Source: an uncultured Bacteroidota bacterium (GTDB lineage Bacteria; Bacteroidota; Bacteroidia; Bacteroidales; F082). Taken from it: a stretch of 64,000 bases of DNA. This document shows positions 3,823-56,810 of the stretch, one piece after another (position 1 is the stretch's first letter; each line of letters starts with the position of its first letter). The notes beneath the pieces are model-generated. The model was not told the origin of the DNA and did not search any database. It was given only the letters and a program-made list of their open reading frames with translations. The stretch spans positions 1 to 64,000 of the forward strand of contig CAJBPB010000291.1 in the NCBI GenBank assembly GCA_903957365.1, written 5' to 3'. Made by a program: the position numbers and the translations under genes.

Positions 3823-5739
3823 TTATCTGAGTAAAATCTTTTTTTCTTCCAGATATGCCATGATTATTTCCACATCAGATTCTTTTCTGGAGGCATCGAA
3901 GGTAAGCTGAGGCGATTCGGGAATCTCATACACTTCATCCAAACCCGGAAGATGACGCAATTCCCCTTTCTCCACCTTGAGATATAATTCAGGTTTGTTG
4001 TTACGGCAAAAGTGTATTCCGGCGCTCATCAAAACCAGATGGAATCGTTCATTTCCAATAATTTCACTTATTTGCTGACGGATAGATTCTGTTGGCGAAA
4101 TGAAAGACGCCACAACGATTATTCCCTGATCGTTCAGCATTTTGCAAACATGGGCCACACGCCGCAGATGTTCGGCACGGTCAGCAGGTGAATAATCAAG
4201 TTCGCGGGATAATCCGGCTCTTACAGTACTACCCTCAAGTAACACAACCGTGGCGCCGCTGTCGAACAATCGTCGTTCGAGATTGTACGCGAGTACGTTT
4301 TTACCACTTCCATGTAGTCCTGTAATCCAAATGGTTACACCTTTTTGCTGGTATCTTTTTTCCAACTCTTCGTGTCCGATCAGGCTCTGTCCGCTGTCGA
4401 TCATCCTGCGTGTTTCGGGATCGGTGATGCGTGAAGGGATGTCGTTGGTGTTCAGTTTGTCGATGATCATACCAACCGCTGAAGTGTTGTGCGTGATGGG
4501 ATCGATCAGGATAAAAGCGCCGGTACTGTGGTTTTTGTGATAAGGATCAAAAAACAAAGGTTTGTTCGTTGTGATGACGACCCGGCCAATTTCATTCAAC
4601 GAAAATGCTTTACAATCAGATTGTTGCAAGGTGTTTACATCCACCCTGTATTTTATTGAGTCGATGCGGGCACGGGAAGTGTTTGCACTGTGTTTGATAA
4701 AAAACTGGGTGTTGGGATCCATTTTCTTTTCGTCCATCCACACGAGCATGGCCTCAAACTGACGCTCAAACCGTGGCTGATTATCAGGGTGAACAAGCAT
4801 ATCACCACGTGAAATATCAATTTCATCTTTCAGTGTCAGTGTAACTGCTTGTGGTGGAAAAGCATATTCAGCAGTGCCATCGGCTGTGATAATTTCGGTT
4901 ACGACTGATTTCTTGCGCGAAGGTAATACCATCAGTTCATCACCCTTTCGTACGATTCCTGAAGCGATTTTGCCTGAGAATCCTCTGAAATCAAGGCTTG
5001 GCCGCAGGACATATTGAATAGGGAACCGCAGATCCTCAAAGTTCCGGTCAGAAACAACGTGTACGGTTTCCAGAAACTCCAACAGACATTTACCATGATA
5101 CCAGGGCATATTGTCAGAGTTTTCGACAACGTTTTCGCCTTTCAGTGCCGATAGTGGAATGAAAGTGATATCAGGGATTGAAAGTGTGGTGGTAAATAAC
5201 TTATAGTCGGCACATATCTGGTCGAATACGGTTTCGCTGTATTCCATCAGGTCCATTTTATTCACCGCGACAACCACGTGTTTTATACCGAGTAATGAAA
5301 CAAGAAAAGTGTGGCGTTTGGTCTGGGTAATCACACCCTTACGTGCATCAATCAGGATGATGGCCAGGTTTGCTGTGCTGGCGCCGGTGACCATATTGCG
5401 TGTATATTGTTCGTGGCCGGGCGTATCGGCGATAATGAATTTTCTTTTGCTTGTCGAAAAATAACGATAGGCCACATCAATGGTGATCCCTTGTTCGCGT
5501 TCAGCTTTTAAACCATCCAGAAGCAAGGCATAGTCGATGGCCTCGCCGGCATGGCCCATGCGTTTGCTGTCGCGTTCAAGGGCGGAAAGCTGGTCTTCGT
5601 AAATCTTTTTACTATCGAATAACAAGCGTCCGATCAGGGTTGATTTGCCGTCATCAACCGATCCGGCTGTAAGTAAACGGAGTAAGTCTTTCCGTTGATC
5701 CTGATCGAGAAAATGGTTTATATCGAGATTTGTGTTCAT
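3823..5739 (-). CDS. cysN/cysC: Sulfate adenylyltransferase large subunit fused to an APS-kinase-like domain
   Basis: A 638-residue CysNC fusion. The GTPase half couples GTP hydrolysis to adenylylation of sulfate with CysD. Its motifs are GSVDDGKST at 26-34, DTPGH at 106-110 and NKMD at 161-164. The C-terminal ~170 residues have the APS kinase fold, which phosphorylates APS to PAPS, but key motifs are altered. The P-loop reads GLHGSGKN at 474-481, with Asn where Ser/Thr is expected. The usual LDGDN block reads LEGST at 501-505. The kinase half may be inactive or altered. The gene lies 80 nt downstream of cysD on the same strand, so co-transcription is likely. Confidence 0.93.
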
Positions 5740-37486: not shown

Positions 37487-37951
37487 ATGAAAAGTAAAGT
37501 TGAAGAAATATTACAACAATATCCAAATGCAGGCCGCGACAGTTTGATCCCGATACTGCAATCTGTTCAGGAATCGCTTGGATTTCTTTCGGAAGAATCT
37601 GTAGTGCAGGTGAGCAAATTTTTAAAAATGCCGGCAAGTAAAATCTTTGGTGTAGCCACATTTTACAACCAGTTCCGTTTTACACAACCTGGCAAATACC
37701 ATGTTATGGTTTGTCGTGGAACGGCTTGTCACGTATTGGGTTCAGCCACTGTACTCGAAGAAATAGAAAAATACCTCAAGGTGAAGCCCGGAATGACCAC
37801 CAAAGACAAAATATTCAGTCTGGAGGTGGTCGCTTGTATTGGCGCCTGTGGATTGGCTCCTGTGATAAGTATCAATGGTGAATTTCATGCGAAAGTTACC
37901 ACCGAATCCATTCAATCAATTTTTGAAACCTACAGAAACAGGGAGGTATAA
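37487..37951 (+). CDS. hydC: Hydrogenase subunit HydC (NuoE-like, [2Fe-2S])
   Basis: A 154-residue thioredoxin-fold protein homologous to complex I NuoE. The [2Fe-2S] ligands are in CRGTACHV and VVACIGACGLAP. In electron-bifurcating hydrogenases this subunit forms the NADH-module core with HydB. Typical N-terminal helices (LIPILQSVQESLGFLSEE) and SKIFGVATFYNQF confirm the family. It is followed two bases later by hydB; the end of hydC also provides a strong Shine-Dalgarno-like GGGAGGT, unusual for this phylum. Confidence 0.95.
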   Translation: MKSKVEEILQQYPNAGRDSLIPILQSVQESLGFLSEESVVQVSKFLKMPASKIFGVATFYNQFRFTQPGKYHVMVCRGTACHVLGSATVLEEIEKYLKVKPGMTTKDKIFSLEVVACIGACGLAPVISINGEFHAKVTTESIQSIFETYRNREV

Positions 37952-37953
37952 CC

Positions 37954-39894
37954 ATGGTCGCTGACAAAACATATTTAATCGAAAACGTACTGAAAAACAG
38001 TGCGAAAACCGAGATGGAACCTTTGGTTGCCGAACAGTTACAATTACTTCGCAAAGACAAAAACACAAAACCCATTGTGTATGTCGGAGCCGGAACATGC
38101 GGTTTAGGTGCCGGTGCCGGTGAGACAATCAAACAGGTTGGCTTTTTTCTGAAAGACAAAGGCATCGATGCTGATGTTATTCCGGTTGGCTGTATCGGTT
38201 TATGTTCTTCCGAACCTTTGATGGATATCAAATTACCCGGTAGAAAACGTATTTCTTTCGAAAAGGTAAGTGGTGACAAAGTTGCCGGCATTCTGGAGAG
38301 TGTTTTTTCGGAAAATTTGCCGAATCATCCATTGCTGGGTCAGTTTGAATCGCAGCAACATGAAAAAAGCTGGGAAAATGTTCCTGCAATAGAAAACCAT
38401 CGTTTTTTCAAACCACAGGTCCGCATTGTGCTCGAAAACTGCGGATTGATCAATCCTGTGAGTATTGAAGAATATATTGCCCGTGATGGTTATAAAGCGT
38501 ATCTGAACACATTAAAGGTATTCAGTCGTTTTGAAATGTGTGATTTCATTGAAAAAAGCGGATTGCGCGGTCGCGGTGGCGGCGGTTTCCCGACTGGTAA
38601 GAAATGGAAATTTGCCCTCGGAACGGAAGCTGAACAACGTTATTTGATTTGTAATGCCGATGAAGGCGACCCGGGAGCGTTTATGGATCGCGCTGTAATT
38701 GAAGGCGACCCGCACAAACTGCTTGAAGGTATGGCCATTGCAGCTTATGCGATAGGCGCAACCAAAGCCTATGTTTATATCCGGGCCGAATATCCGCTCG
38801 CCATTGAACGGCTTGTCATTGCAATCAAACAGGCCAAAGATTATGGTCTGATTGGTAAAAATATTTTCGATTCGGGAATCGATCTCGATATTGTAATCAA
38901 AAAAGGTGCCGGCGCTTTTGTTTGCGGTGAGGAAACAGCTCTCATCCATAGTATTGAAGGCAAACGCGGAATGCCACGTCCTCGACCGCCCTTCCCCGCC
39001 GTAAGTGGTTTGTTTGGAAAACCAACCATCATCAACAACGTTGAAACCTTATCTAATCTGCCATCCATTGTTCGTAAAGGTGCCGATTGGTTCAGCAGTA
39101 TGGGAACCAAAACAAGCAAAGGAACCAAAGTATTCGCACTATCTGGCAAAATTGCAACCACCGGATTGGTTGAAATCCCAATGGGGACAACCGTTCGTGA
39201 CATCATCTTTAAAATCGCCGGCGGTATCGTGAACGGTAAAAAGTTCAAAGCAGTCCAGATGGGTGGCCCGTCAGGTGGTTGTGTTACGGATGCCAATCTT
39301 GATATTGAAATTGACTATGAAAACCTTATCGCAGTTGGTGCCATGATGGGCTCTGGCGGTATGGTTGTCATGGACGAAGATACCTGTATGGTGGATGTTG
39401 CCAAGTTTTTTATGGATTTCATTCAGCGCGAAAGTTGCGGAAAATGTATCCCTTGCCGTGAAGGAACACGTCGTATGCTCGAGATTCTCGAAAGCATCAC
39501 AACTAAACCAAAAAACCTTGAAACCCACGAACCTCTGGCCCGTTTCAAAGGCGTAATGCAGATTGAAAGTCTGGGAAAAGTGATCAAAGACACTTCGCTC
39601 TGCGGCCTCGGACAAACAGCGCCAAACCCTGTACTCAGTACCTTACAATGGTTCCGTGAAGAATATGAAGAACATGTGTTCGATAAGAAATGCCGTGCCG
39701 GTGTTTGTAAAAACCTCCGCGATTACACCATTATCGTTGAGAAATGTACAGGTTGTACGGTATGTGCAAAAAAATGCCCGACAAACGCCATCATCGGTGG
39801 ACGCAAACAACCACATTTTATCATTCCTGAAAAATGTATCAGTTGTGGAGCCTGTTTCGAAGCATGTAATTTTGACGCTATAAAAGTCAGTTAA
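37954..39894 (+). CDS. hydB: Hydrogenase subunit HydB (NuoF-like flavoprotein)
   Basis: A 646-residue fusion. It has an N-terminal thioredoxin-like [2Fe-2S] domain (TCGLGAGAGE, GCIGLCSSEP) and the FMN/NADH NuoF domain (GLRGRGGGGFPTGKKW, NADEGDPGAFMDR, GAGAFVCGEETALIHSIEGKRGMPRPRPPFPA). The [4Fe-4S] motif ESCGKCIPCREGTRRM is at 493-508, and two C-terminal ferredoxin clusters lie at about 598-646 (CTGCTVCAKKCP, CISCGACFEAC). In Thermotoga-type enzymes this subunit binds NAD(H) and supports electron bifurcation/confurcation. The architecture matches that class. Confidence 0.96.
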   Translation: MVADKTYLIENVLKNSAKTEMEPLVAEQLQLLRKDKNTKPIVYVGAGTCGLGAGAGETIKQVGFFLKDKGIDADVIPVGCIGLCSSEPLMDIKLPGRKRISFEKVSGDKVAGILESVFSENLPNHPLLGQFESQQHEKSWENVPAIENHRFFKPQVRIVLENCGLINPVSIEEYIARDGYKAYLNTLKVFSRFEMCDFIEKSGLRGRGGGGFPTGKKWKFALGTEAEQRYLICNADEGDPGAFMDRAVIEGDPHKLLEGMAIAAYAIGATKAYVYIRAEYPLAIERLVIAIKQAKDYGLIGKNIFDSGIDLDIVIKKGAGAFVCGEETALIHSIEGKRGMPRPRPPFPAVSGLFGKPTIINNVETLSNLPSIVRKGADWFSSMGTKTSKGTKVFALSGKIATTGLVEIPMGTTVRDIIFKIAGGIVNGKKFKAVQMGGPSGGCVTDANLDIEIDYENLIAVGAMMGSGGMVVMDEDTCMVDVAKFFMDFIQRESCGKCIPCREGTRRMLEILESITTKPKNLETHEPLARFKGVMQIESLGKVIKDTSLCGLGQTAPNPVLSTLQWFREEYEEHVFDKKCRAGVCKNLRDYTIIVEKCTGCTVCAKKCPTNAIIGGRKQPHFIIPEKCISCGACFEACNFDAIKVS

Positions 39895-39922
39895 TCATTG
39901 TATTATATAAAATACAGAAACT

Positions 39923-41644
39923 ATGAATCTGAATATTGAAGTAAATAATAACGTACTGACCGCCATGCCTGGCGATACCATACTCGATGCGCTCAACCGT
40001 CACGGGATGAATGTTCCGACACTTTGCCATCTGAAAGGTCTGATGCCAAGCGGCGCATGCCGTATGTGCGTGGTGGAAGTGGAAGGACGTAAAAACCTGG
40101 TAACATCCTGCTCTGAACCGGTGATGGATGGAATGAAAATTCAGACACACTCTGCCAGGGTAATTGAATCCCGTAAAACAATTGTCGAATTGTTGCTTTC
40201 AAATCACCCTGATGATTGCTTGTATTGTGAGCGTAACGGAAGCTGTGAATTACAAAAACTTGCCGAAGACCTTAATGTACGTGAAAGGCGCATCAGTGGC
40301 AATAAAAATAATTACAAACTGGATGTCTCAAGTGCGAGTATCGTACGCGATCCGGCCAAATGTATTTTGTGCGGAAGGTGTGTGCGTGTCTGTGAGGAAA
40401 TCGAAGGTGTTTCGGCGATTGAATTTGTCGGTCGCGGAAGCAAAACCTTTATCGACACATCATTCAACCACGGATTGAATGTTTCAACCTGTGTTAACTG
40501 CGGACAGTGTATCATGGTTTGCCCGACAGGCGCCTTGAAAGAAAAGCCACATATCGACGAAATAAAGACAAAACTAGCCGATCCCACAAAAACTGTTGTA
40601 ATCCAATATGCGCCATCTATCACGATTTCACTCGCCGAAGAGTTTGGTTTTAAACCAGGCCAGAATATAGGGGGAATAATGAATGCAGCCTTGCGCCGGA
40701 TTGGATTTAACTTTGTTTTTGATACTTCGTTTTCAGCCGATTTAACGATCATGGAAGAGGCATCCGAATTGGTTCACCGTATCACAACTGGTGGAACATT
40801 GCCGATGATTACCAGCTGTTGTCCGGGCTGGGTTAAATACGCTGAAGAATTTCAACATGATATTTTACCCAATTTATCAAGCTGCAAATCGCCACAGCAA
40901 ATGATGGGCGCAATAATAAAGAGCTATTTCGCTGAAGCGGAAGGTATTAATCCGGCAGATATATATTCTGTATCGGTAATGCCTTGCACAGCCAAGAAAT
41001 TCGAGCAACAGCGCGAAGAGATGACACAAAATGGAATCTCTGATGTAGATGCTGTACTGACAACCCGTGAACTGGCCAGATTGATTCGTTTATTTGGTAT
41101 TGATATGGATAAAATCAGTCCCGAGCTGGCTGATTCACCTTTGGGAACACGCTCTTCTGCCGGAAAAATCTTTGGTGTTTCAGGCGGTGTTATGGAAGCT
41201 GCTATCCGATCAGCACACTATTTCATAACTGGTAAGGAATTGATTAAATTTCAGGTGAACGCAGTGCGTGGCCTTGCCGGAAGAAAAGAAGCCAAAGTAA
41301 TGATCAATGGTCTTGAAATTGGTGTTGCTGTAGTGAGTGGATTAAAAAATGCCGAAATCCTGATGGAAGAAGTCAGAAACGGACGCAAAGACATTCATTT
41401 CATCGAAGTGATGGCTTGTCCGGGTGGATGCATCAATGGTGGCGGACAACCTATCGGGACAAATGAGGAATCACTGCGTGCACGCATGAAAAGTTTGTAT
41501 GAAATTGACGAACACGATGCAATAAAAGTTTCGCACAAGAATCCGTATATCATTGAGCTTTATGATAAGTTCCTTGGTAAACCGCTTGGGCATAAGAGCC
41601 ATCACCTGTTGCACACCAATTATCAGGAGAGGGATGTGAATTGA
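39923..41644 (+). CDS. hydA: [FeFe]-hydrogenase catalytic subunit HydA (group A, bifurcating type)
   Basis: A 573-residue catalytic subunit that makes or consumes H2. N-terminal modules: a [2Fe-2S] domain (CHLKGLMPSGACRMC), the His/Cys [4Fe-4S] site HPDDCLYCERNGSC (95-108) and two ferredoxin clusters (147-200). The H-cluster motifs are intact: L1 TSCCPGW at 297-303, L2 MPCTAKK at 353-359, and L3 MACPGGC at 497-503 followed by INGGGQP. All cluster cysteines and the proton-transfer cysteine are present, so it should be active. Association with hydB/hydC indicates the NADH- plus ferredoxin-dependent A3 type. Confidence 0.96.
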   Translation: MNLNIEVNNNVLTAMPGDTILDALNRHGMNVPTLCHLKGLMPSGACRMCVVEVEGRKNLVTSCSEPVMDGMKIQTHSARVIESRKTIVELLLSNHPDDCLYCERNGSCELQKLAEDLNVRERRISGNKNNYKLDVSSASIVRDPAKCILCGRCVRVCEEIEGVSAIEFVGRGSKTFIDTSFNHGLNVSTCVNCGQCIMVCPTGALKEKPHIDEIKTKLADPTKTVVIQYAPSITISLAEEFGFKPGQNIGGIMNAALRRIGFNFVFDTSFSADLTIMEEASELVHRITTGGTLPMITSCCPGWVKYAEEFQHDILPNLSSCKSPQQMMGAIIKSYFAEAEGINPADIYSVSVMPCTAKKFEQQREEMTQNGISDVDAVLTTRELARLIRLFGIDMDKISPELADSPLGTRSSAGKIFGVSGGVMEAAIRSAHYFITGKELIKFQVNAVRGLAGRKEAKVMINGLEIGVAVVSGLKNAEILMEEVRNGRKDIHFIEVMACPGGCINGGGQPIGTNEESLRARMKSLYEIDEHDAIKVSHKNPYIIELYDKFLGKPLGHKSHHLLHTNYQERDVN

Positions 41645-41704: not shown

Positions 41705-43687
41705 ATGGCGCATAACAAAAAACATAAGCAATTGGTTTTTACGGTTAAAGATCGGTGTCGTGTTTGCTTCACTTGTGTACGTGAATGTCCGGTAAAAGCA
41801 ATTAAAATGATCAACGGTCAGGCCGAAGTGATTTCTGAACGCTGCATCGGATGTGGTAATTGTGTGCGTGTCTGCCGGCAAAATGCGAAGGTGTTTTTAA
41901 GGCAAATCGATGAAGTGAAAGATTTACTTAACAGTAACAACCGGGTTATCGCTTGTATCGCACCAAGTTTTCCGGCCGAATTTACCGAAATTGAGGATTA
42001 CAAAGTGTTTGTTGGCATGGTAAAAGCCTTAGGGTTTGAGCTTGTTACCGAAGTTGCTTTTGGTGCCGATATGGTAGCCGTTGCCTATAAAGATTTATAC
42101 AACAACAATGAAAATAAGGGCATCATTTCTTCTGATTGTCCTGCGGTGGTATATTATGTTGAACAATACCAGCCCGAACTTATTCCAAATCTTGCCCCAT
42201 TGGTTTCGCCTATGGTGGCTGCTGCACGTTTTCTGAAAGTGAAATATGGTGATGATGTTCAGATAGTGTTTGTCGGACCATGTATCGCGAAAAAATCAGA
42301 ATCGGACGAAATTGACTATGCCCTGACATTTAATGAGTTAAGAGAATTATTCAGCGATTTTAACATCGATCCGCTACAGGTTGCAGTACGTGATTTTGAT
42401 CCGCCACATGCTGGTATGGGAGCCATTTTCCCAGTCAGTCATGGATTATTGCAAAACATGGATGTGAAACATGATATCACAAAAGGAGATGTGATAGTAG
42501 CTGAAGGACGGGTGAATTTTAAGGATGCCCTGAGTGAGTTTTCGAATGGAGAATTGCAGGCACGTCATCTCGAATTGCTTTGTTGCGAAGGTTGCATCAT
42601 GGGTCCGGGCATGTCGGCAAACGGTAAAAAATACATACGTCGTTCATGTATTTCGACCTATGTTTCTCAAAAACTGGAAAATATTGATGTTCTGGATTGG
42701 GAAAACAATATGCTAGCTGCAAAGCAAATCGATTTGTCCACAAATTTTGAGGCTATGGACAGGCGCACCCAAAATCCGTCTTCACAAAAAGTAGCTGAAG
42801 TATTGCTGAGTATGGGCAAAGATTCTGCCGATGATTACCTCGACTGCGGAGCCTGCGGTTACGACAGTTGTGTCGAACATGCGATTGCTGTAGTACAGGG
42901 ACTGGCCGAAAATGAAATGTGCCTGCCTTATACAATTGAGAAACTTCATGATTCCATCGAAAAAATAAACTCATCCAACAGCGAACTGGCCAACGCCAGA
43001 GAAGCACTCAAGCAATCTGAAAAACTAGCTCACATGGGCCAGCTTTCAGCAGGAATTGCGCATGAACTGAACAATCCGCTGGGTGTTATCACTATGTACA
43101 GTAATTTATTACTCGATGAGGTAAAAGATGACCAGACAAGAAGTGATCTCACGCTGATTGTTGAACAGGCTGACCGATGCAGAAAAATCGTTGGCGGATT
43201 ACTCAATTTTGCCCGTAAAAATCAGGTAAGACTGATCGAAACTGATCTAGAGAAGTTTGTTACAAAAAGTATTCAATCGATAATTCTGACTGACGATGTT
43301 GTGGTGAAGATTGATGTCGATTTGACAGACCCGTTTGTTTTCCTCGATCCCGACCAGATGATGCAGGTGCTCACCAACCTCGAAAAAAATGCAGTGGAAG
43401 CCATGCCGGATGGCGGTGAAATAATCATCAGCCTGAAAGAGCATGGTGACGAAGTTGAAATATCTATCAGCGATACCGGAACAGGTATATCACAAGACAA
43501 TATGGATAAAGTTTTCACACCATTCTTCACCACAAAAGAAGTTGGTAAAGGAACCGGACTCGGATTGCCTCTTTGTTACGGAATCGTGAAAATGCACAAA
43601 GGAAAAATAAATATTATTTCAAATGACGATCTTCAGAAGGGGCCAACAGGAACCTCTTTTGTGATAAGATTACCAAGAAATCCCTGA
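41705..43687 (+). CDS. Sensor histidine kinase fused to a hydrogenase-like H-domain
   Basis: A 660-residue soluble fusion. In order: two ferredoxin clusters (CRVCFTCVRECP, CIGCGNCVRVC; 18-58) and an [FeFe]-hydrogenase-like domain (~70-370). A Fes-type Fe-S segment (DCGACGYDSC, ~388) follows, then a short coiled coil and a histidine kinase (AHELNNPLGVITMY; N-box LEKNAVEA; GKGTGLGLPLCYG). The H-domain keeps an L2-like VGPCIAKKSE and L3-like CCEGC, but L1 reads SSDCPAV, with Asp replacing the proton-transfer Cys. It is probably an H2 or redox sensor rather than a turnover enzyme. Its partner receiver follows 24 bases downstream. Confidence 0.88.
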   Translation: MAHNKKHKQLVFTVKDRCRVCFTCVRECPVKAIKMINGQAEVISERCIGCGNCVRVCRQNAKVFLRQIDEVKDLLNSNNRVIACIAPSFPAEFTEIEDYKVFVGMVKALGFELVTEVAFGADMVAVAYKDLYNNNENKGIISSDCPAVVYYVEQYQPELIPNLAPLVSPMVAAARFLKVKYGDDVQIVFVGPCIAKKSESDEIDYALTFNELRELFSDFNIDPLQVAVRDFDPPHAGMGAIFPVSHGLLQNMDVKHDITKGDVIVAEGRVNFKDALSEFSNGELQARHLELLCCEGCIMGPGMSANGKKYIRRSCISTYVSQKLENIDVLDWENNMLAAKQIDLSTNFEAMDRRTQNPSSQKVAEVLLSMGKDSADDYLDCGACGYDSCVEHAIAVVQGLAENEMCLPYTIEKLHDSIEKINSSNSELANAREALKQSEKLAHMGQLSAGIAHELNNPLGVITMYSNLLLDEVKDDQTRSDLTLIVEQADRCRKIVGGLLNFARKNQVRLIETDLEKFVTKSIQSIILTDDVVVKIDVDLTDPFVFLDPDQMMQVLTNLEKNAVEAMPDGGEIIISLKEHGDEVEISISDTGTGISQDNMDKVFTPFFTTKEVGKGTGLGLPLCYGIVKMHKGKINIISNDDLQKGPTGTSFVIRLPRNP

Positions 43688-45322: not shown

Positions 45323-46750
45323 GTGAAATTTACTCCAGAACAATATAAACTACCGGATGTTTCGATGCAGCCTTTCCTCGATGATGAGGAGATATGGTCA
45401 TTCATCCATGCTGCCAGACCAAGCCTTGAACAAGTCGAAGCGGTTATTGCCAGATCACTGGCAAAAAACAGGCTGAACCTTGCCGAAACTGCTATTTTAG
45501 TGAACGCCACTGATCCCGAAATGATCGAAATGATTAAGGCCGGAGCACGTGCGCTGAAAGAAAAAGTATATGGAAAGCGTATTGTGCTTTTTGCTCCGCT
45601 TTATGTCGGAAATTACTGCTCAAACAACTGCCGCTATTGTGGGTTCAAGGCATCGAATAAAAAAGCAATCCGAAAAACGCTTACAAAAGATGAACTTATC
45701 GCCAATGTAAAGGCTTTGGAAGAGCATGGGCAAAAACGACTTATTCTCGTTTTTGGTGAACATCACACCTATTCTCCCGAATTTATTGCCGAGACGGTTA
45801 AAACGGTCTATGACGTAAAAAAAGACCATGGTGAAATCCGGCGTATCAATATCAATGCGGCTCCACTGGATATTGAGGGTTTCAAAACAGTAAAAGAATC
45901 CAATATCGGAACCTATCAGGTTTTCCAGGAAACCTACCATCATCCTACTTATAAAGTGTGTCATCCATCTGGAAAAAAATCCGATTATGATTATCGTCTC
46001 ACTTCGCTCGACAGAGCAATGGAAGCCGGAATCGATGATGTGGGTATTGGTGCGTTATTTGGTTTATACGACTGGCGTTTTGAAGTGCTTTCATTGCTCC
46101 GTCATGTCAATCATCTCGAAGCCTGCTACAATGTTGGTCCGCATACCATTTCGTTTCCACGCATTCAGGATGCATCTGAATATGATCTTGATGATAGTAA
46201 TCATGTTACAGATGAGGAGTTTACGCGATTGGTCGCCATTTTGCGACTTGCAGTTCCATACACAGGATTGATACTCACAGCCCGCGAATCGGAAGCAACC
46301 CGCAAGGAGGTATTGTCGTATGGTTGTTCACAAATTGATGCCGGAACCAAACTTGAAATTGGCGCTTACGCCGAAAATCCTGATGTAAATCAGAATCTGA
46401 ATAAAGAACAGTTCAAAATCAATGATGACCGCACTCTGGCGCAGGTAATCGATGAACTCCTCGAAGCTGATTATATTCCATCCTTTTGCACGGCTTGCTA
46501 CCGCAAAGGAAGAACAGGTCAGCATTTTATGGAGTTCAGTGTGCCCGGATTCATTAAAAAATTCTGTACCCCCAACGCCATGCTTACCCTTGCTGAATAT
46601 ATCATGGATTATGCAAGTGATTCAACGGCTGTTAAAGGCTGGCAGGTGATTGAACGCAATCTTGCCGATATGGATGACGAAGGGTATAAAGCTGAATTGA
46701 TGAACCGAATTGAAAGAATTAAACAAGGCGAGCATGATTTGTATTTTTGA
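45323..46750 (+). CDS. hydG: [FeFe]-hydrogenase maturase HydG (radical SAM tyrosine lyase)
   Basis: A 475-residue radical SAM enzyme that cleaves tyrosine to make the CO and CN ligands of the H-cluster. The SAM cluster motif CSNNCRYC lies at 99-106. The C-terminal CX2CX22C motif (Cys389, Cys392, Cys415; CTACYRKGRTGQHF...) is exact, distinguishing HydG from ThiH. The start codon is GTG, 13 bases after the upstream stop; the next ATG is 14 codons inside a conserved stretch. Together with hydF and hydE it completes the maturation set. Confidence 0.96.
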   Translation: MKFTPEQYKLPDVSMQPFLDDEEIWSFIHAARPSLEQVEAVIARSLAKNRLNLAETAILVNATDPEMIEMIKAGARALKEKVYGKRIVLFAPLYVGNYCSNNCRYCGFKASNKKAIRKTLTKDELIANVKALEEHGQKRLILVFGEHHTYSPEFIAETVKTVYDVKKDHGEIRRININAAPLDIEGFKTVKESNIGTYQVFQETYHHPTYKVCHPSGKKSDYDYRLTSLDRAMEAGIDDVGIGALFGLYDWRFEVLSLLRHVNHLEACYNVGPHTISFPRIQDASEYDLDDSNHVTDEEFTRLVAILRLAVPYTGLILTARESEATRKEVLSYGCSQIDAGTKLEIGAYAENPDVNQNLNKEQFKINDDRTLAQVIDELLEADYIPSFCTACYRKGRTGQHFMEFSVPGFIKKFCTPNAMLTLAEYIMDYASDSTAVKGWQVIERNLADMDDEGYKAELMNRIERIKQGEHDLYF

Positions 46751-46811: not shown

Positions 46812-48011
46812 ATGTCAAAAGGAAAAGACCAAAAACCACATATCGGCATCTTCGGCCGCCGTAACAATGGAAAAAGTTCCATCATCAATACCATTGTGAA
46901 ACAGGATATTGCTATTGTTTCGGATCAGGCTGGGACAACAACCGATCCTGTGAAAAAATCTATTGAGATATTTGGCATTGGTCCGGCAATTATTGTCGAT
47001 ACTGCCGGAATAGATGACAGCGGTGAACTGGGCGAAAAACGTGTTCAGAAGTCACTCGATACAATTAAAACCATCGACTGTGCCATGTTGGTTATTGTGA
47101 ATAACGAATTTGGTTTTTATGAAAAGCAGCTGATCATGCAGTTCCGCGATCATGGCATCCCGTATCTGATTGTGCATAACAAAGCTGATATTCAGCCGGT
47201 TGATGATATTACTCTGGAGAAAATCAAAGATTTCAGTCAGGCAAAGGTCATGGATTTCAGTGTAAATCAGCCCGAAAGACTTCCTGTGCTCATCGAGGCT
47301 TTGAGGAAAACCATTCCTGAAACAACCTATCAGAAAAGTTCATTGCTCGGAACGATCATTAAAAAGGATCAGGTTATCTTACTCGTTACGCCCATCGACT
47401 CGGAAGCGCCGGATGGGCGTATGATTCTGCCGCAGGTGATGGCCATCCGCGATGTGCTCGATAACGATTGCATTTGTATCGTTCTCAAAGAAACCAATCT
47501 GAAACAATATTTCGACCAGAATATGCCACGTCCGCATCTGGTTGTTACAGACAGTCAGGCATTTGGCTTTGTAAACAGCATTGTTCCTGCTGATATTCCA
47601 CTGACCAGTTTCAGTATTGTTTTTGCCCATCTGCGTGGTGATTTTGAGAATTATCTCGTTGGAACTCCTGAACTTTCGAAACTGGAGGATGGCGACCGGG
47701 TATTGATTCTTGAATCATGCGCCCATCAGGTGAGTTGCGAAGATATCGGAAGACATAAACTGCCAAAATGGATTAAAGAATTCACAGGTAAAGAGCTCAC
47801 TTTCGATATAGTTTCCGGACTAAATCATGTTACCGATATGCATACCTACAAACTTGTCATTCAGTGCGGTGGTTGTGTTGTAACACGAAAGCAGCTGCTA
47901 AACCGTTTGAAACCGGCGGTGGATGCCAAAATACCGGTAAGCAATTACGGAATGACGATTGCCTATGTCAATGGGATTTTCGACCGTGTTACCCAACCAT
48001 TTTCAGTGTAA
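46812..48011 (+). CDS. hydF: [FeFe]-hydrogenase maturation GTPase HydF
   Basis: A 399-residue scaffold GTPase that assembles the diiron subcluster and hands it to apo-HydA. The GTPase motifs are GIFGRRNNGKSS, TTTDPVKKS, DTAGI and NKAD. The C-terminal [4Fe-4S] site is CAH (near residue 303) plus QCGGC (near 356); the His often found before the last CxxC is Gln here. The gene is followed by hydE after three bases. Confidence 0.95.
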   Translation: MSKGKDQKPHIGIFGRRNNGKSSIINTIVKQDIAIVSDQAGTTTDPVKKSIEIFGIGPAIIVDTAGIDDSGELGEKRVQKSLDTIKTIDCAMLVIVNNEFGFYEKQLIMQFRDHGIPYLIVHNKADIQPVDDITLEKIKDFSQAKVMDFSVNQPERLPVLIEALRKTIPETTYQKSSLLGTIIKKDQVILLVTPIDSEAPDGRMILPQVMAIRDVLDNDCICIVLKETNLKQYFDQNMPRPHLVVTDSQAFGFVNSIVPADIPLTSFSIVFAHLRGDFENYLVGTPELSKLEDGDRVLILESCAHQVSCEDIGRHKLPKWIKEFTGKELTFDIVSGLNHVTDMHTYKLVIQCGGCVVTRKQLLNRLKPAVDAKIPVSNYGMTIAYVNGIFDRVTQPFSV

Positions 48012-48014
48012 AGT

Positions 48015-48785
48015 ATGCTAACAACCATACATAAAATCCTCACACAGGAAACGCTTTCCAAAAGTGATCTTGTTACCTTGCTTTCGGTGAAATCGCCTGA
48101 AGCAACCCGGATGATACTCGATAAGGCGTATCAGGTAAAGACGGAAACTGTTGGTCGTAAGGTATATTTGCGCGGGCTGATTGAACTGACGAATATTTGT
48201 GCTAAAAACTGTTTATATTGCGGTATAAGAGCTGCAAATACAAAAGTTGAACGTTATACGCTTTCCACGGATGAGGTGCTGCAGGCGGCTGAATTTGCCT
48301 GGAAAAACGGATTCGGTTCTTTGGTTATTCAGACCGGTGAACAAGTCAGCAAAGCATTTACAAATACTGTAGAAGATTTACTGGTGAGAATCCATGAAAA
48401 AACAAACCATGAACTTACCATCACACTTTCGTGCGGTGAGCAGGATTTAGAAGTGTATAAACGCTGGAAAAATGCCGGTGCTGACAGGTTTTTGCTGCGT
48501 ATCGAAACAACAAACAGAGCGTTGTATTACAAGATTCATCCTCAGGATGAGAATCACTCATTTGAAAAGCGTATCGAAGCCCTTAAAAATTTGCAGCTTG
48601 CAGGTTTTCAGGCTGGTACAGGTGTCATGATTGGTCTTCCTGAACAAACAATTGAAGATCTGGCTGATGATCTGATCTTCTTCAAAACCATGGATATCGA
48701 TATGATCGGAATGGGACCGTTTATCGAACATGCTGACACGCCTTTATACGATAAAACACATTTACTATGGCCGGCTGACGAGCGT
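48015..48785 (+). CDS. hydE: HydE maturase, exon 1 (split by group II intron)
   Basis: The first 257 codons of HydE, the radical SAM enzyme that acts on the HydG-derived iron complex during H-cluster assembly. The cluster motif CAKNCLYC is at 62-69, followed by GSLVIQTGEQ, LTITLSCGEQ and MIGLPEQTIEDLADDLIFFKTMDIDMIGMGPFIEHADTPL. The unspliced frame reads two more codons into a stop inside the intron. Exon 2 supplies the last ~105 residues, and the spliced protein would be 362 aa, normal for HydE. Confidence 0.92.
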
Positions 48786-49306
48786 GTGTGACTTGAACAA
48801 CAATCATTTGATTGATGGTGCTTTAAAGCAGATGAGAGTAGGCCTCTCAGCAACGATTTTCAGGAGTAGTTGCTAAACCACCTTATGCTGCAGGATTAGG
48901 AAACGGTTTTGTGGTGAGCGATAAGGAAAAACAGGAACTAAGATTCCTGTAGGTAAGTGTAAGTGAGTTGAACGCGAGTGAACCAATGATGAAGCCTCGT
49001 AAAAGCAATAAAAGATGTCGAAAGCAGGTAGTTACGTTTGTACCTGCGATAAGAGTGTATCGGACACCTGATTACAGGGTACACGGCATCCGGGGTTAAG
49101 TTGGCAAGACACTTACGCAGGCTGTTTTAAGGAACAAGTGAACTCTGTATCGTTCTGTAAAATCGCAAGAGGAAGCAGACACCAAAGGATGTGGGTGAGA
49201 TATAGGGGGCAGACTTAGTCGTAGTAGTAATGAAGTGCAGTAATGAGCATGGAGCAAAGGGCTAAGCATGTTAGGTTTCAAAATAATTTACAACCGATAA
49301 AAAGGA

Positions 49307-50530
49307 ATGATTGATTACTATGAGACAAAATCACAGCCAATAACCAAAATAATGGTTTGGCAGGCATATAAGGAAGTAAAATCCAATGCCGGAAGTGAAG
49401 GAATAGACAAAATGAGTTGGGAATATCTGGCAAAGAACCAGAGTACCGAACTCTATAAGCTATGGAATCGCTTAAGTTCAGGAAGTTATTACCCAAAAGC
49501 CGTCAAGCAGGTATCTATACCGAAGAAAGATGGAGGAGTCCGCAATTTAGGAATACCAACCATTTTAGATCGTATAGCACAACAAGTAGTCAGGGTTCAC
49601 CTTGAAAGGATAGTAGAACCGTTGTTTCATGCAAGTTCATATGGGTATCGCCCAAAACGGAGCTGTCACGATGCCGTAAAACAAGCAAATACAAATTCAT
49701 TCGATCATGATTTTGCCATTGACTTGGATATAAAAGGCTTCTTCGACACCATCGACCATGAATTGCTATTGAAAGCGGTACGTCATTATTGTCCCGACAA
49801 GTGGATTTTGATGTATGTAGAGAGATGGTTACAAGCAGGTGTAATACAGCAAGATGGCGAATTCATACCATCAGTAACGGGTACACCACAGGGCGGCGTA
49901 ATCAGCCCACTGTTAGCAAACATTTTCTTACATATTGTTTTCGATAAATGGATGGATAAGCATCACCCTGAGAAACCATTTGAGCGGTATGCTGATGACA
50001 TCGTTGTGCATTGCAAAACAGAACGACAAGCGCAATTCATGCTAATACAAATACGTCAACGCATGGAAGCGTGTAAGTTAATATTGCATGCAGAGAAAAG
50101 TAAGATTGTTAATTTAAGAGGATTTTCGACAAAGAAATATCCCAAAGGATTTGACTTTTTAGGCTTCACAATACGACCACGAGCGTACACAGGCAAAGGC
50201 AAAACGAAAGCCATGCCCGGTATTTTTGTGAGTCAAAAATCGAAAACAAGCATCATGCAGAAGATCAAAAAGATGAACATACACAAAAGGCGCAAGACTT
50301 TGGAAGAAATTGCCAGAGAAATCAATCCGGTGATAAGAGGAATAATCAACTATTATCACAAATTTTGGGAATACGATATGCGTCTTGTATGGAATCAACT
50401 GAATACACGACTACTAAAATGGGTAAAATGGGAAAAGGACTTGTATAAGAAATCATCGGTGAAATATCTGAAAACCAAATACAAGGAACAACCCAACTTA
50501 TTTGCCCATTGGTTATTGGTACATCCTTGA
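49307..50530 (+). CDS. ltrA: Group II intron reverse transcriptase/maturase
   Basis: A 407-residue intron-encoded protein. RT blocks include IPKKDGGVRNLGIPTILDRIAQQ, YGYRPKRSCHDAV, DLDIKGFFDTIDH, TGTPQGGVISPLLAN (191-205) and the catalytic YADD (228-231). The C-terminal ~90 residues (REINPVIRGIINYYHKFW) are the maturase (GIIM) domain, which promotes splicing. There is no HNH endonuclease domain, so target cleavage on the second strand would have to come from elsewhere. A GGAA-like Shine-Dalgarno (AAAAAGGA) overlaps the start. It must be translated from the unspliced hydE transcript. Confidence 0.96.
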   Translation: MIDYYETKSQPITKIMVWQAYKEVKSNAGSEGIDKMSWEYLAKNQSTELYKLWNRLSSGSYYPKAVKQVSIPKKDGGVRNLGIPTILDRIAQQVVRVHLERIVEPLFHASSYGYRPKRSCHDAVKQANTNSFDHDFAIDLDIKGFFDTIDHELLLKAVRHYCPDKWILMYVERWLQAGVIQQDGEFIPSVTGTPQGGVISPLLANIFLHIVFDKWMDKHHPEKPFERYADDIVVHCKTERQAQFMLIQIRQRMEACKLILHAEKSKIVNLRGFSTKKYPKGFDFLGFTIRPRAYTGKGKTKAMPGIFVSQKSKTSIMQKIKKMNIHKRRKTLEEIAREINPVIRGIINYYHKFWEYDMRLVWNQLNTRLLKWVKWEKDLYKKSSVKYLKTKYKEQPNLFAHWLLVHP

Positions 50531-50564
50531 AATTATTTAATTTTGAGTGATTTATTAACATGAA

Positions 50565-50598
50565 GAGCCGTGTGAAGGGAGACTTTCAAGCACGGTTC
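50565..50598 (+). ncRNA. Group II intron domain V
   Basis: A 34-nt hairpin beginning GAGCCG and ending CACGGTTC, with the AGC catalytic triad near its 5' side and a GAGA-type tetraloop region (AGGGAGACTTT). Domain VI follows to 50638. Confidence 0.88.
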
Positions 50599-50638
50599 CG
50601 TGAGAATGTAGGGGTGAAATTCCCTTACATGACTCGAT

Positions 50639-50956
50639 TTCCGGATTAGTTTACTGATGCTTTCGCTGGCCAGGATTACCATGCCTGATATCAATCTGGC
50701 ATCATCCACCGCACTCGAAACACTCGATTCGCTTGGCCGGCAAAAAGGATTACTTGCAGGTGCCAATGTGGTGATGCCTAATTTGACCCCGGTTACAAGC
50801 CGGAAAAAATATTTGCTGTACAACAACAAACCCAATCTTGACAAAGATGCCGCCCTGAGTGCTGACACCTTACAAAAAATCATTGCTGAAATCGGCGAAG
50901 TAATCGGATTCAATGAAGCCGGGAGCTCACTCCATTTCAAAAACCGGATTGGTTAA
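50639..50956 (+). CDS. hydE: HydE maturase, exon 2
   Basis: The C-terminal 105 codons of HydE, reading FRISLLMLSLARITMPDINL, then STALETLDSLGRQKG, AGANVVMPNLTP and the terminal FNEAGSSLHFKNRIG. These match the end of the HydE barrel (the GANVIMPNxTP block is characteristic). An ATG at 50657 could start a separate fragment, but such a fragment lacks the radical SAM cluster. The reading frame is intact, so the gene is interrupted rather than decayed. Confidence 0.9.
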   Translation, partial: FRISLLMLSLARITMPDINLASSTALETLDSLGRQKGLLAGANVVMPNLTPVTSRKKYLLYNNKPNLDKDAALSADTLQKIIAEIGEVIGFNEAGSSLHFKNRIG

Positions 50957-55361: not shown

Positions 55362-56810
55362 AATTTTAAAACGATGACACCAAATTTATCATTATTCAAG
55401 AGCAATCAATTAAGAGAATTCCTACGGATTGATTATTTAAAGAGTTTATGGAGTGTATTCCCATTTGAAGTTATTAATAATTATGATAAAAAAGATAGGA
55501 GAGACAGAGTTTATTCAACAGAAAACACAATTATGACGATGGTGTATTCTTCCACTCTGGCTGACAAAACCCTGGAGAATGCAGTAGATATCTTTAAGCA
55601 AATTCATGATAACCAGATTGATCTTGTTTTAAAAAACGCTAATGAGGCTATGGAACAAGAAAAGGCAAATGACTTAGAAGATTTAACAATAAGAAGAGGA
55701 CCAAAGAAAAAGTACAAATTAAAAGTTTCAAAGAGTAAAATCATTGAAATATCAGAAAATACTGCAGCATATTCAAAAGCAAGAAAACGTGTAAGTTTTG
55801 AATTATTGCAGAATGTTTTCTACAAAACCAGAGAAGATTCTAATCTAAATGTGTATTGGTATGGTATGGAAACATTTTTGACTGATGGAACATATGTTCA
55901 GATGCAAGATTCAAAGGAACTTAGGGAAATTTACGATGTGGTAAGTGTAAATGCAAATTATAAAGAAGCATATCCACAAGGATTATTGCAATCAATAATA
56001 CGACAAGGCAGTGGTATAATCCACGATTACGCATTAGCCAACCGGCATGTTTCGGAATTATCTCTTATTTATAAACTCATACATAGTATACCTGCCAAAG
56101 GATTATTATTAGCAGATGATTTATATAATTCATTCGCTGTGTTTGCTTTAGCAAGGAAGAATGATTTTGATATTATTGTTCCTGGAAAACGCTTAAGAAA
56201 TTATAAAGTAATAAGGCAAATTGCTGATGGAGATGAAATTGTAGAGTTAACAGGGAACGAATATCCCAAATGGTTGTCCAAAGAAGAAGTACTACCTGAA
56301 AAATTATTGCTAAGGCGATTATCATTTATGTCACTTGATGGAGCGGAAACAATGGTGATATACACAACCATATTAAATGAAAAAATCCTTAAATCAGAAA
56401 TAATATTAAAATATTTTACCCGATGGGATATAGAAATTACAATACGTGAAGTAAAAACAATAATGGAGATCAATGTATTAAGAGGAAAAACAGACGATAT
56501 AGTCAGAAAAGAGCTTGCCGCGGCATTAATAGCATATAACCTTATCCGCAAAATTATTGCGCAGTCCACAGAAGGGACTGCTTTTTCCCCCAAAAGGGAT
56601 ATCATTCAAGAGTTCTTTGAGAGTAATAAGGAACTTTATATTGACAGAAAAGGTAGAGTTTACAAACGATGGTCTTCAGGTAGATATGGAAAAATTGAAA
56701 AAGAAAATATTAAGGAAGATAATCCTCCAAAGACCAGGAAGACATTATCCTAGAGAAACAAAGAAAGGTGCTTATAAAAAATATAAATAATACCTATGTT
56801 AGTGCCATTA
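55313..56810 (+). mobile_element. IS4-type insertion sequence
   Basis: A 1498-bp element bounded by perfect 17-bp terminal inverted repeats beginning TAATGGCACTAACATAG (55313-55329, complement at 56794-56810). It is flanked by 10-bp direct duplications of target DNA and carries one transposase gene. The exact duplications and intact transposase show that insertion was recent and the element may be active. It splits the histidine kinase gene. Confidence 0.93.
55374..56753 (+). CDS. IS4-family DDE transposase
   Basis: A 459-residue transposase. The DDE residues are visible: Asp in FLTDGTYVQMQ, Asp in LLLADDLYNS, and Glu in the YREK-like block TRWDIEITIREVKTIMEIN. A Lys/Arg-rich N-terminal part (IRRGPKKKYKLKV) is likely DNA binding. 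The 10-bp target duplication agrees with IS4-group elements. The frame is complete between the inverted repeats. The subgroup is not fixed. Confidence 0.9.
   Translation: MTPNLSLFKSNQLREFLRIDYLKSLWSVFPFEVINNYDKKDRRDRVYSTENTIMTMVYSSTLADKTLENAVDIFKQIHDNQIDLVLKNANEAMEQEKANDLEDLTIRRGPKKKYKLKVSKSKIIEISENTAAYSKARKRVSFELLQNVFYKTREDSNLNVYWYGMETFLTDGTYVQMQDSKELREIYDVVSVNANYKEAYPQGLLQSIIRQGSGIIHDYALANRHVSELSLIYKLIHSIPAKGLLLADDLYNSFAVFALARKNDFDIIVPGKRLRNYKVIRQIADGDEIVELTGNEYPKWLSKEEVLPEKLLLRRLSFMSLDGAETMVIYTTILNEKILKSEIILKYFTRWDIEITIREVKTIMEINVLRGKTDDIVRKELAAALIAYNLIRKIIAQSTEGTAFSPKRDIIQEFFESNKELYIDRKGRVYKRWSSGRYGKIEKENIKEDNPPKTRKTLS

Follow-up and report, generated by a model that had tools for sequence, protein, structure and literature searches.

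Introns in conserved bacterial genes, such as recA and groEL, are known but uncommon. The intron of the heat-shock operon is that in groEL of Azotobacter. The majority of bacterial group II introns occur outside housekeeping genes, but some are found within them, the cited cases being the heat-shock operon and recA of Geobacillus kaustophilus (PMC4424553, its references 138 and 139); residence in housekeeping genes is tied particularly to cyanobacteria and to the CL/ML lineages (PMC4424553). The original prediction likewise held that these introns usually avoid conserved housekeeping genes. The intron described here is like those of recA and groEL in being a mobile-type group II intron in a conserved chromosomal gene whose expression needs splicing. 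It differs in its host gene, hydE, in its host phylum, Bacteroidota, and in having relatives that home to attC-like sites.

Group IIC-attC introns insert into the bottom strand of attC at TTGT/T, opposite to the cassettes, with an IBS1 of 3-4 bp (PMC7923331). The clade of the hydE intron shares with them attC-like sites (those of its relatives), a reverse transcriptase (RT) without an endonuclease (En) domain, and insertion before a T, but it lies at ACGT|T or CCGT|T in the direction of the cassettes, has an IBS1-EBS1 pairing of 6-8 bp at most sites and carries an AGC triad in domain V (DV). A few group IIB introns also occur at attC sites, one of them cassette-oriented (PMC7923331). These integron-associated introns, UHB.I2 and H.ha.F1/F2 (PMC7923331), are likewise non-IIC and adjoin attC, UHB.I2 being the cassette-oriented one; however, UHB.I2 encodes a CL1 RT and its ends (UUGCG..GU) are atypical, and H.ha.F1/F2 are truncated class E copies. 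The group II intron Ll.LtrB, which resides in a conjugative relaxase gene (PMC6003770), likewise has to be spliced out before its protein-coding host gene can be expressed, but that gene belongs to a conjugative plasmid, and the expression cost shown for Ll.LtrB is for hydE an analogy only. An intact intron in the only hydE found, a gene needed by every [FeFe] hydrogenase, offers a natural test of host tolerance and of the cost shown for Ll.LtrB (PMC6003770). A literature search, mostly of papers outside subscription, found no description of hydE interrupted by a group II intron.

Structure and boundaries of the hydE intron

The product of hydE is required to build the [FeFe] hydrogenase active site. 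In the stretch of DNA analysed (the window, 64,000 nucleotides from an uncultured Bacteroidota bacterium), the gene is divided by an intact, apparently spliceable group II intron in its sense strand. The features of the divided gene are as follows.

48015 to 48785, + strand: hydE exon 1, codons 1-257, with the CxxxCxxC radical SAM motif (TIGR03956, E 7.5e-74, profile 2-240)
48778 to 48785, + strand: IBS1 in hydE exon 1, ACGAGCGT, pairing at 8 of 8 positions with EBS1 (two G-U)
48786 to 50638, + strand: group II intron, 1853 nt, GTGTG...AT (Rfam matches, boundaries common to relatives, conserved structure)
48834 to 48954, + strand: conserved core of the 5' ribozyme domains (Rfam RF01999, group-II-D1D4-2, 100.8 bits, E 1.5e-19)
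49024 to 49047, + strand: EBS1 hairpin, stem GCAGGTA/TACCTGC, loop GTTACGTTTG (most of the stem's pairs show compensatory change across 12 introns)
49034 to 49040, + strand: EBS1, ACGTTTG, to which T49041 may add an eighth pair (best of 507 windows; pairing and covariation)
49307 to 50530, + strand: intron-encoded RT/maturase, full length, 407 aa, YADD (TIGR04416, 410.8 bits, E 4.8e-123)
50565 to 50598, + strand: domain V with AGC triad (Rfam match and comparative fold)
50601 to 50638, + strand: domain VI and 3' end, with unpaired branch-point A 50632 (covarying stem around an invariant bulged A)
50639 to 50956, + strand: hydE exon 2, codons 258-362 and stop (TIGR03956, E 1.2e-25, profile 245/247-333)

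Joined, the exons have the radical SAM motif and near-full coverage of the HydE profile TIGR03956 (2-240 and 245-333 of 340 positions) that identify a HydE. Compared with the structures of Thermotoga maritima HydE, exon 1 matches with an E of 3e-54 as far as residue 240, and exon 2 picks up at residue 246. The exons meet exactly in frame at R257|F258, and the spliced protein of 362 aa aligns to the HydE of a sister species with no gaps and 76.5% identity. Unspliced reading runs into a stop one codon into the intron (..DERV*), and automatic gene calling would give two broken hydE pieces, an annotation trap.

The intron starts with GTGTGAC at 48786 and ends with ..GACTCGAT at 50638, that is, with a 5' GUGYG and a 3' AY at a sharp boundary with unrelated flanks. 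Both ends are common to relatives located in unrelated sites: the 12 relatives that reach the 5' end start with GTGTG[A/T]C immediately after CGT, and the 3' ends of relatives read CGAT (CGAC in L109) preceding a T. The first base of exon 2 is a T, a putative IBS3, and all 14 close relatives in which the 3' end can be read have this +1 T. The sister species G002 carries a 5'-truncated copy of the intron in which similarity ends at the same 3' place and is followed by unrelated flank. Thus, the relatives and this fossil fix the intron ends independently of the hydE frame, with which they agree. Shifted splice sites (a start at 48784 within GTGTGTG, or a 3' end one base further on) were considered and rejected, as the relatives fix both ends and the frame would otherwise be broken. 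Loci L079, L081 and L024 are 5'-truncated fossils from this intron clade, and all three end in CGAT|TA next to unrelated sequence.

The Rfam Intron_gpII model (DV/DVI) matches positions 50563-50638 (57.3 bits, E 1.3e-8). RNAalifold predicts 136 pairs in the 5' part of 12 introns, with at least one compensatory change in 80 of them. The hydE intron forms 133 of these 136 pairs and 27 of 27 in DV-DVI (160 of 163 in total); the 133 come from the same alignment that predicted the structure and so indicate a non-degenerate copy, support for the fold itself being given by the compensatory changes. Branch-point A 50632 is the seventh base from the 3' end, and the adjoining DVI stem pairs covary (GAG/CTC to GGG/CCC).

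EBS1 was located by an unbiased scan of every window of the 5' part against exon positions -6 to -1, for 13 introns paired with their sites. Of 507 windows, the one at 49034 (ACGTTT), which falls in the loop of the covarying hairpin at 49024-49047, ranks top with a mean pairing of 5.77 out of 6, and is also top for excess over permuted exons. The intron has a structured domain I with an EBS1 loop that pairs to the IBS1 of the 5' exon. Exon and loop have changed together in L102 (CCTACGT/ACGTAGG), L103 (ATAGCCGT/ACGGTTAT) and L109 (ATAAACGT/ACGTTTAT). In the empty window, 93 of 124,276 positions match as well as the hydE IBS1. Three IBS2 windows were scanned for EBS2 with no signal above background, and EBS3 is not findable by covariation because the +1 T is invariant.

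The original prediction had proposed an intron at 48786-50638 with GTGTG and AT ends, a domain V, a branch A and its own maturase, lying in the sense strand and rejoining HydE exactly in frame. Each of these elements is found where it was placed, and the spliced protein is gap-free against the sister HydE. Two checks that it had suggested also turned out in its favour: RNA covariance models for both group-II-D1D4-2 and Intron_gpII matched within the intron, and EBS1/IBS1 pairing is present at the end of exon 1 and covaries in relatives.

Relatives of the intron and their insertion sites

The RT/maturase is encoded in domain IV, as in mobile bacterial group II introns, and matches PF00078 (RVT_1) and PF08388 (GIIM); no En domain is reported among its profile matches. 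It has 15 close relatives in named Bacteroidota genomes (63-74% identity in the best segment), and the RT tree places the hydE intron within a Bacteroidota-only clade of 15 rows with 100/100 support. Assignment to group IIC, IIC-attC included, fails: an 8-bp IBS1-EBS1 pairing is possible, the hydE site has no hairpin and the relatives are cassette-oriented at CGT|T. The host genome contains a second RT-like ORF (L007, G000:C20:2149-2655), which is weakly related (30 bits to TIGR04416).

Of the 12 relatives whose 5' site can be read, nine (L097, L098, L100, L101, L104, L105, L106, L110 and L111) are inserted at CGT|T within cassette recombination sites of attC-like type, where long imperfect palindromes have the intron at their 3' end. 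The layout runs from a TAAC or CAAC box through complementary arms, such as GCACCTACCC ... GGGTAGCTGC, to AAACGT|TA, and in several cases a downstream ORF on the same strand starts 26-50 bases on. This is the anatomy of an attC cassette site, with the intron in the R' box and in cassette orientation; the sites were recognised by eye and by folding, the folding z-score not being significant for every site. The integron integrase profile (TIGR02249) has no match over cut-off in eight of eight relatives' genomes; the sites are therefore called attC-like, and complete integrons are not claimed. The remaining three relatives (L102, L103 and L109) occupy other sites with matching new EBS1 sequences. 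No relative is known to interrupt a conserved gene, the ORFs that span the sites being short except for one of 212 aa at L104 and an antisense one of 179 aa at L100. A Cyclobacterium plantarum contig carries the same intron twice (L104 and L105), about 6 kb apart, each copy at a different attC-like repeat.

The hydE insertion site forms no hairpin (folding z 0.17). Tried as a match to the attC consensus, it was rejected, scoring 4.3 on a weight matrix versus about 20 for attC sites, with 271 of 124,262 positions scoring equally. Thus, likeness to attC sites is claimed only for the IBS1-EBS1 pairing and CGT|T. A search of the host genome for the attC-end motif found none, a weak result since the other counts are near chance. 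Given the attC-like sites of the relatives, the hydE location is read as ectopic; in the simplest history, a member of an attC-homing lineage probably jumped ectopically into a coding gene, hydE. The case would show how such an intron can move from cassette sites into coding sequence, and the attC-associated relatives suggest a lineage that behaves unlike group IIC-attC.

The less expected finding is the attC preference of the whole clade; the hydE intron itself is of a known kind, and what is unusual is its place. The evidence leaves us evenly divided over the broad reading in which a Bacteroidota-wide, non-IIC, En-less clade targets attC-like sites at their 3' (R') box, cassette-oriented (CGT|T) and separately from IIC-attC, and one member has invaded the H-cluster maturase gene, present in a single copy, where splicing maintains it, so that [FeFe] hydrogenase maturation would depend on a selfish ribozyme.

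Hydrogenase maturation and intron splicing

The following hyd genes precede hydE on the same strand.

39923 to 41644, + strand: [FeFe] hydrogenase catalytic subunit HydA (PF02906, 317.6 bits)
45323 to 46750, + strand: hydG (TIGR03955, 503 bits)
46812 to 48011, + strand: hydF (TIGR03918, 472 bits)

The host genome is a draft of 4.44 Mb in 385 contigs (96.2% complete, 3.9% contamination). One copy of the intron was found in it, and no second hydE, although one could be missing from so fragmented a draft. The [FeFe] hydrogenase large-subunit domain scores over cut-off in six host-genome regions, two of them just upstream in the window. Among 60 family genomes (host included), 33 have hydE over the family cut-off, each as one uninterrupted match, and a split hydE (two matches) occurs in the host only. 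The original prediction, which had named a second intact hydE as evidence against itself and sister genomes as a place to look for an uninterrupted gene, holds on both counts within this draft and the relatives with hydE over cut-off.

The dN/dS of spliced hydE is about 0.06 against G001 and about 0.07 against G002, versus 0.09 between G001 and G002, a sign of strong purifying selection, with exon 1 and exon 2 both constrained; the ratios are rough because dS is near or above saturation. They indicate, roughly, a hydE that was functional into the recent past at least; they carry no implication for the age of the intron, and the selection may predate a recent insertion.

We consider it likely that a mobile En-less intron from an attC-homing Bacteroidota lineage sits ectopically in the single hydE and is spliced out, and that H-cluster assembly depends on this splicing. 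What can be read from the sequence is the intron anatomy, its boundaries, EBS1, the in-frame exons, the single copy and the lineage's usual sites. The intron would have entered the coding sequence through EBS1-IBS1 pairing (two G-U) and the +1 T. Its RNA would fold within the hyd transcript, aided by its own RT/maturase, and branch A 50632 would attack the 5' splice site in a branching pathway. Joining of the exons at R257|F258 (junction GACGAGCGT/TTCCGGATT) would yield an mRNA for full-length HydE, 1853 nt shorter, with GCTGACGAGCGT directly joined to TTCCGGATTAGTT. H-cluster assembly of all the [FeFe] hydrogenases of the genome would then depend on splicing of the hydE intron. As the intron is intact and lies in the only hydE copy found, the hydrogen enzymes probably depend on its self-removal from the mRNA. 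The intron would probably impose a constant cost on expression and not act as a regulated switch; by analogy with Ll.LtrB, it may, once excised, reopen joined exons and so reduce hydE mRNA (PMC6003770). The "control point" of the original prediction was not borne out, since there is no sign of regulated splicing and dependency is not control.

The insertion might instead be recent and hydE effectively knocked out, through poor splicing at a wobble-paired ectopic site, with maturation lost or performed by another hydE. We judge this unlikely. The hydE site is indeed unlike the usual attC target and its EBS1 pairing includes two G-U, but that pairing is predicted to be stronger at hydE (-7.5 kcal/mol) than at a typical attC-type site (-4.6 kcal/mol). 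A precedent for the loss of hydE from this position comes from G003, the closest sister by HydG (92.6%), which has no hydE after hydF (ending at 3891; L194, G003:C124) and whose only hydE is divergent, 47% identical and on another contig; by these sequences, hydE has been lost or replaced at the post-hydF position at least once in the genus. The host genome is also only 96% complete; however, no second hydE was found in it, hydA, hydG and hydF are intact, and exons, ribozyme and RT are all without decay.

An assembly or strain-mixture artefact, with a dominant genotype carrying an intact hydE, could arise in a draft of 385 contigs with 3.9% contamination, but is very improbable: both joins coincide exactly with group II splice sites, IBS1 and EBS1 match and the exons are in frame, the contig is 84 kb long, and repeat-driven chimerism is unlikely because the intron is single-copy. 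Equally far-fetched is a HydE of two polypeptides made without splicing (a 258-aa exon 1 ORF and exon 2 from the ATG at 50657), for while each fragment is an open reading frame and has a possible start, the start at 50657 drops the first six conserved residues of the exon 2 part, and the arrangement is unnecessary given an intact intron. Removal of the intron by splicing remains the preferred reading.

The wider neighbourhood of the gene has other features. Three successive genes at 37487-41644, on the same strand as hydGFE, resemble a trimeric NAD-linked (possibly bifurcating) [FeFe] hydrogenase. They are followed by an ORF at 41705-43687 with ferredoxin and [FeFe] hydrogenase-like domains and a C-terminal histidine-kinase-like region, and then by response regulator genes; this ORF, upstream of hydGFE, may encode an H2 sensor. 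Downstream of the hyd cluster, an ORF at 55374-56753 encodes an IS4-family transposase (NF033592).
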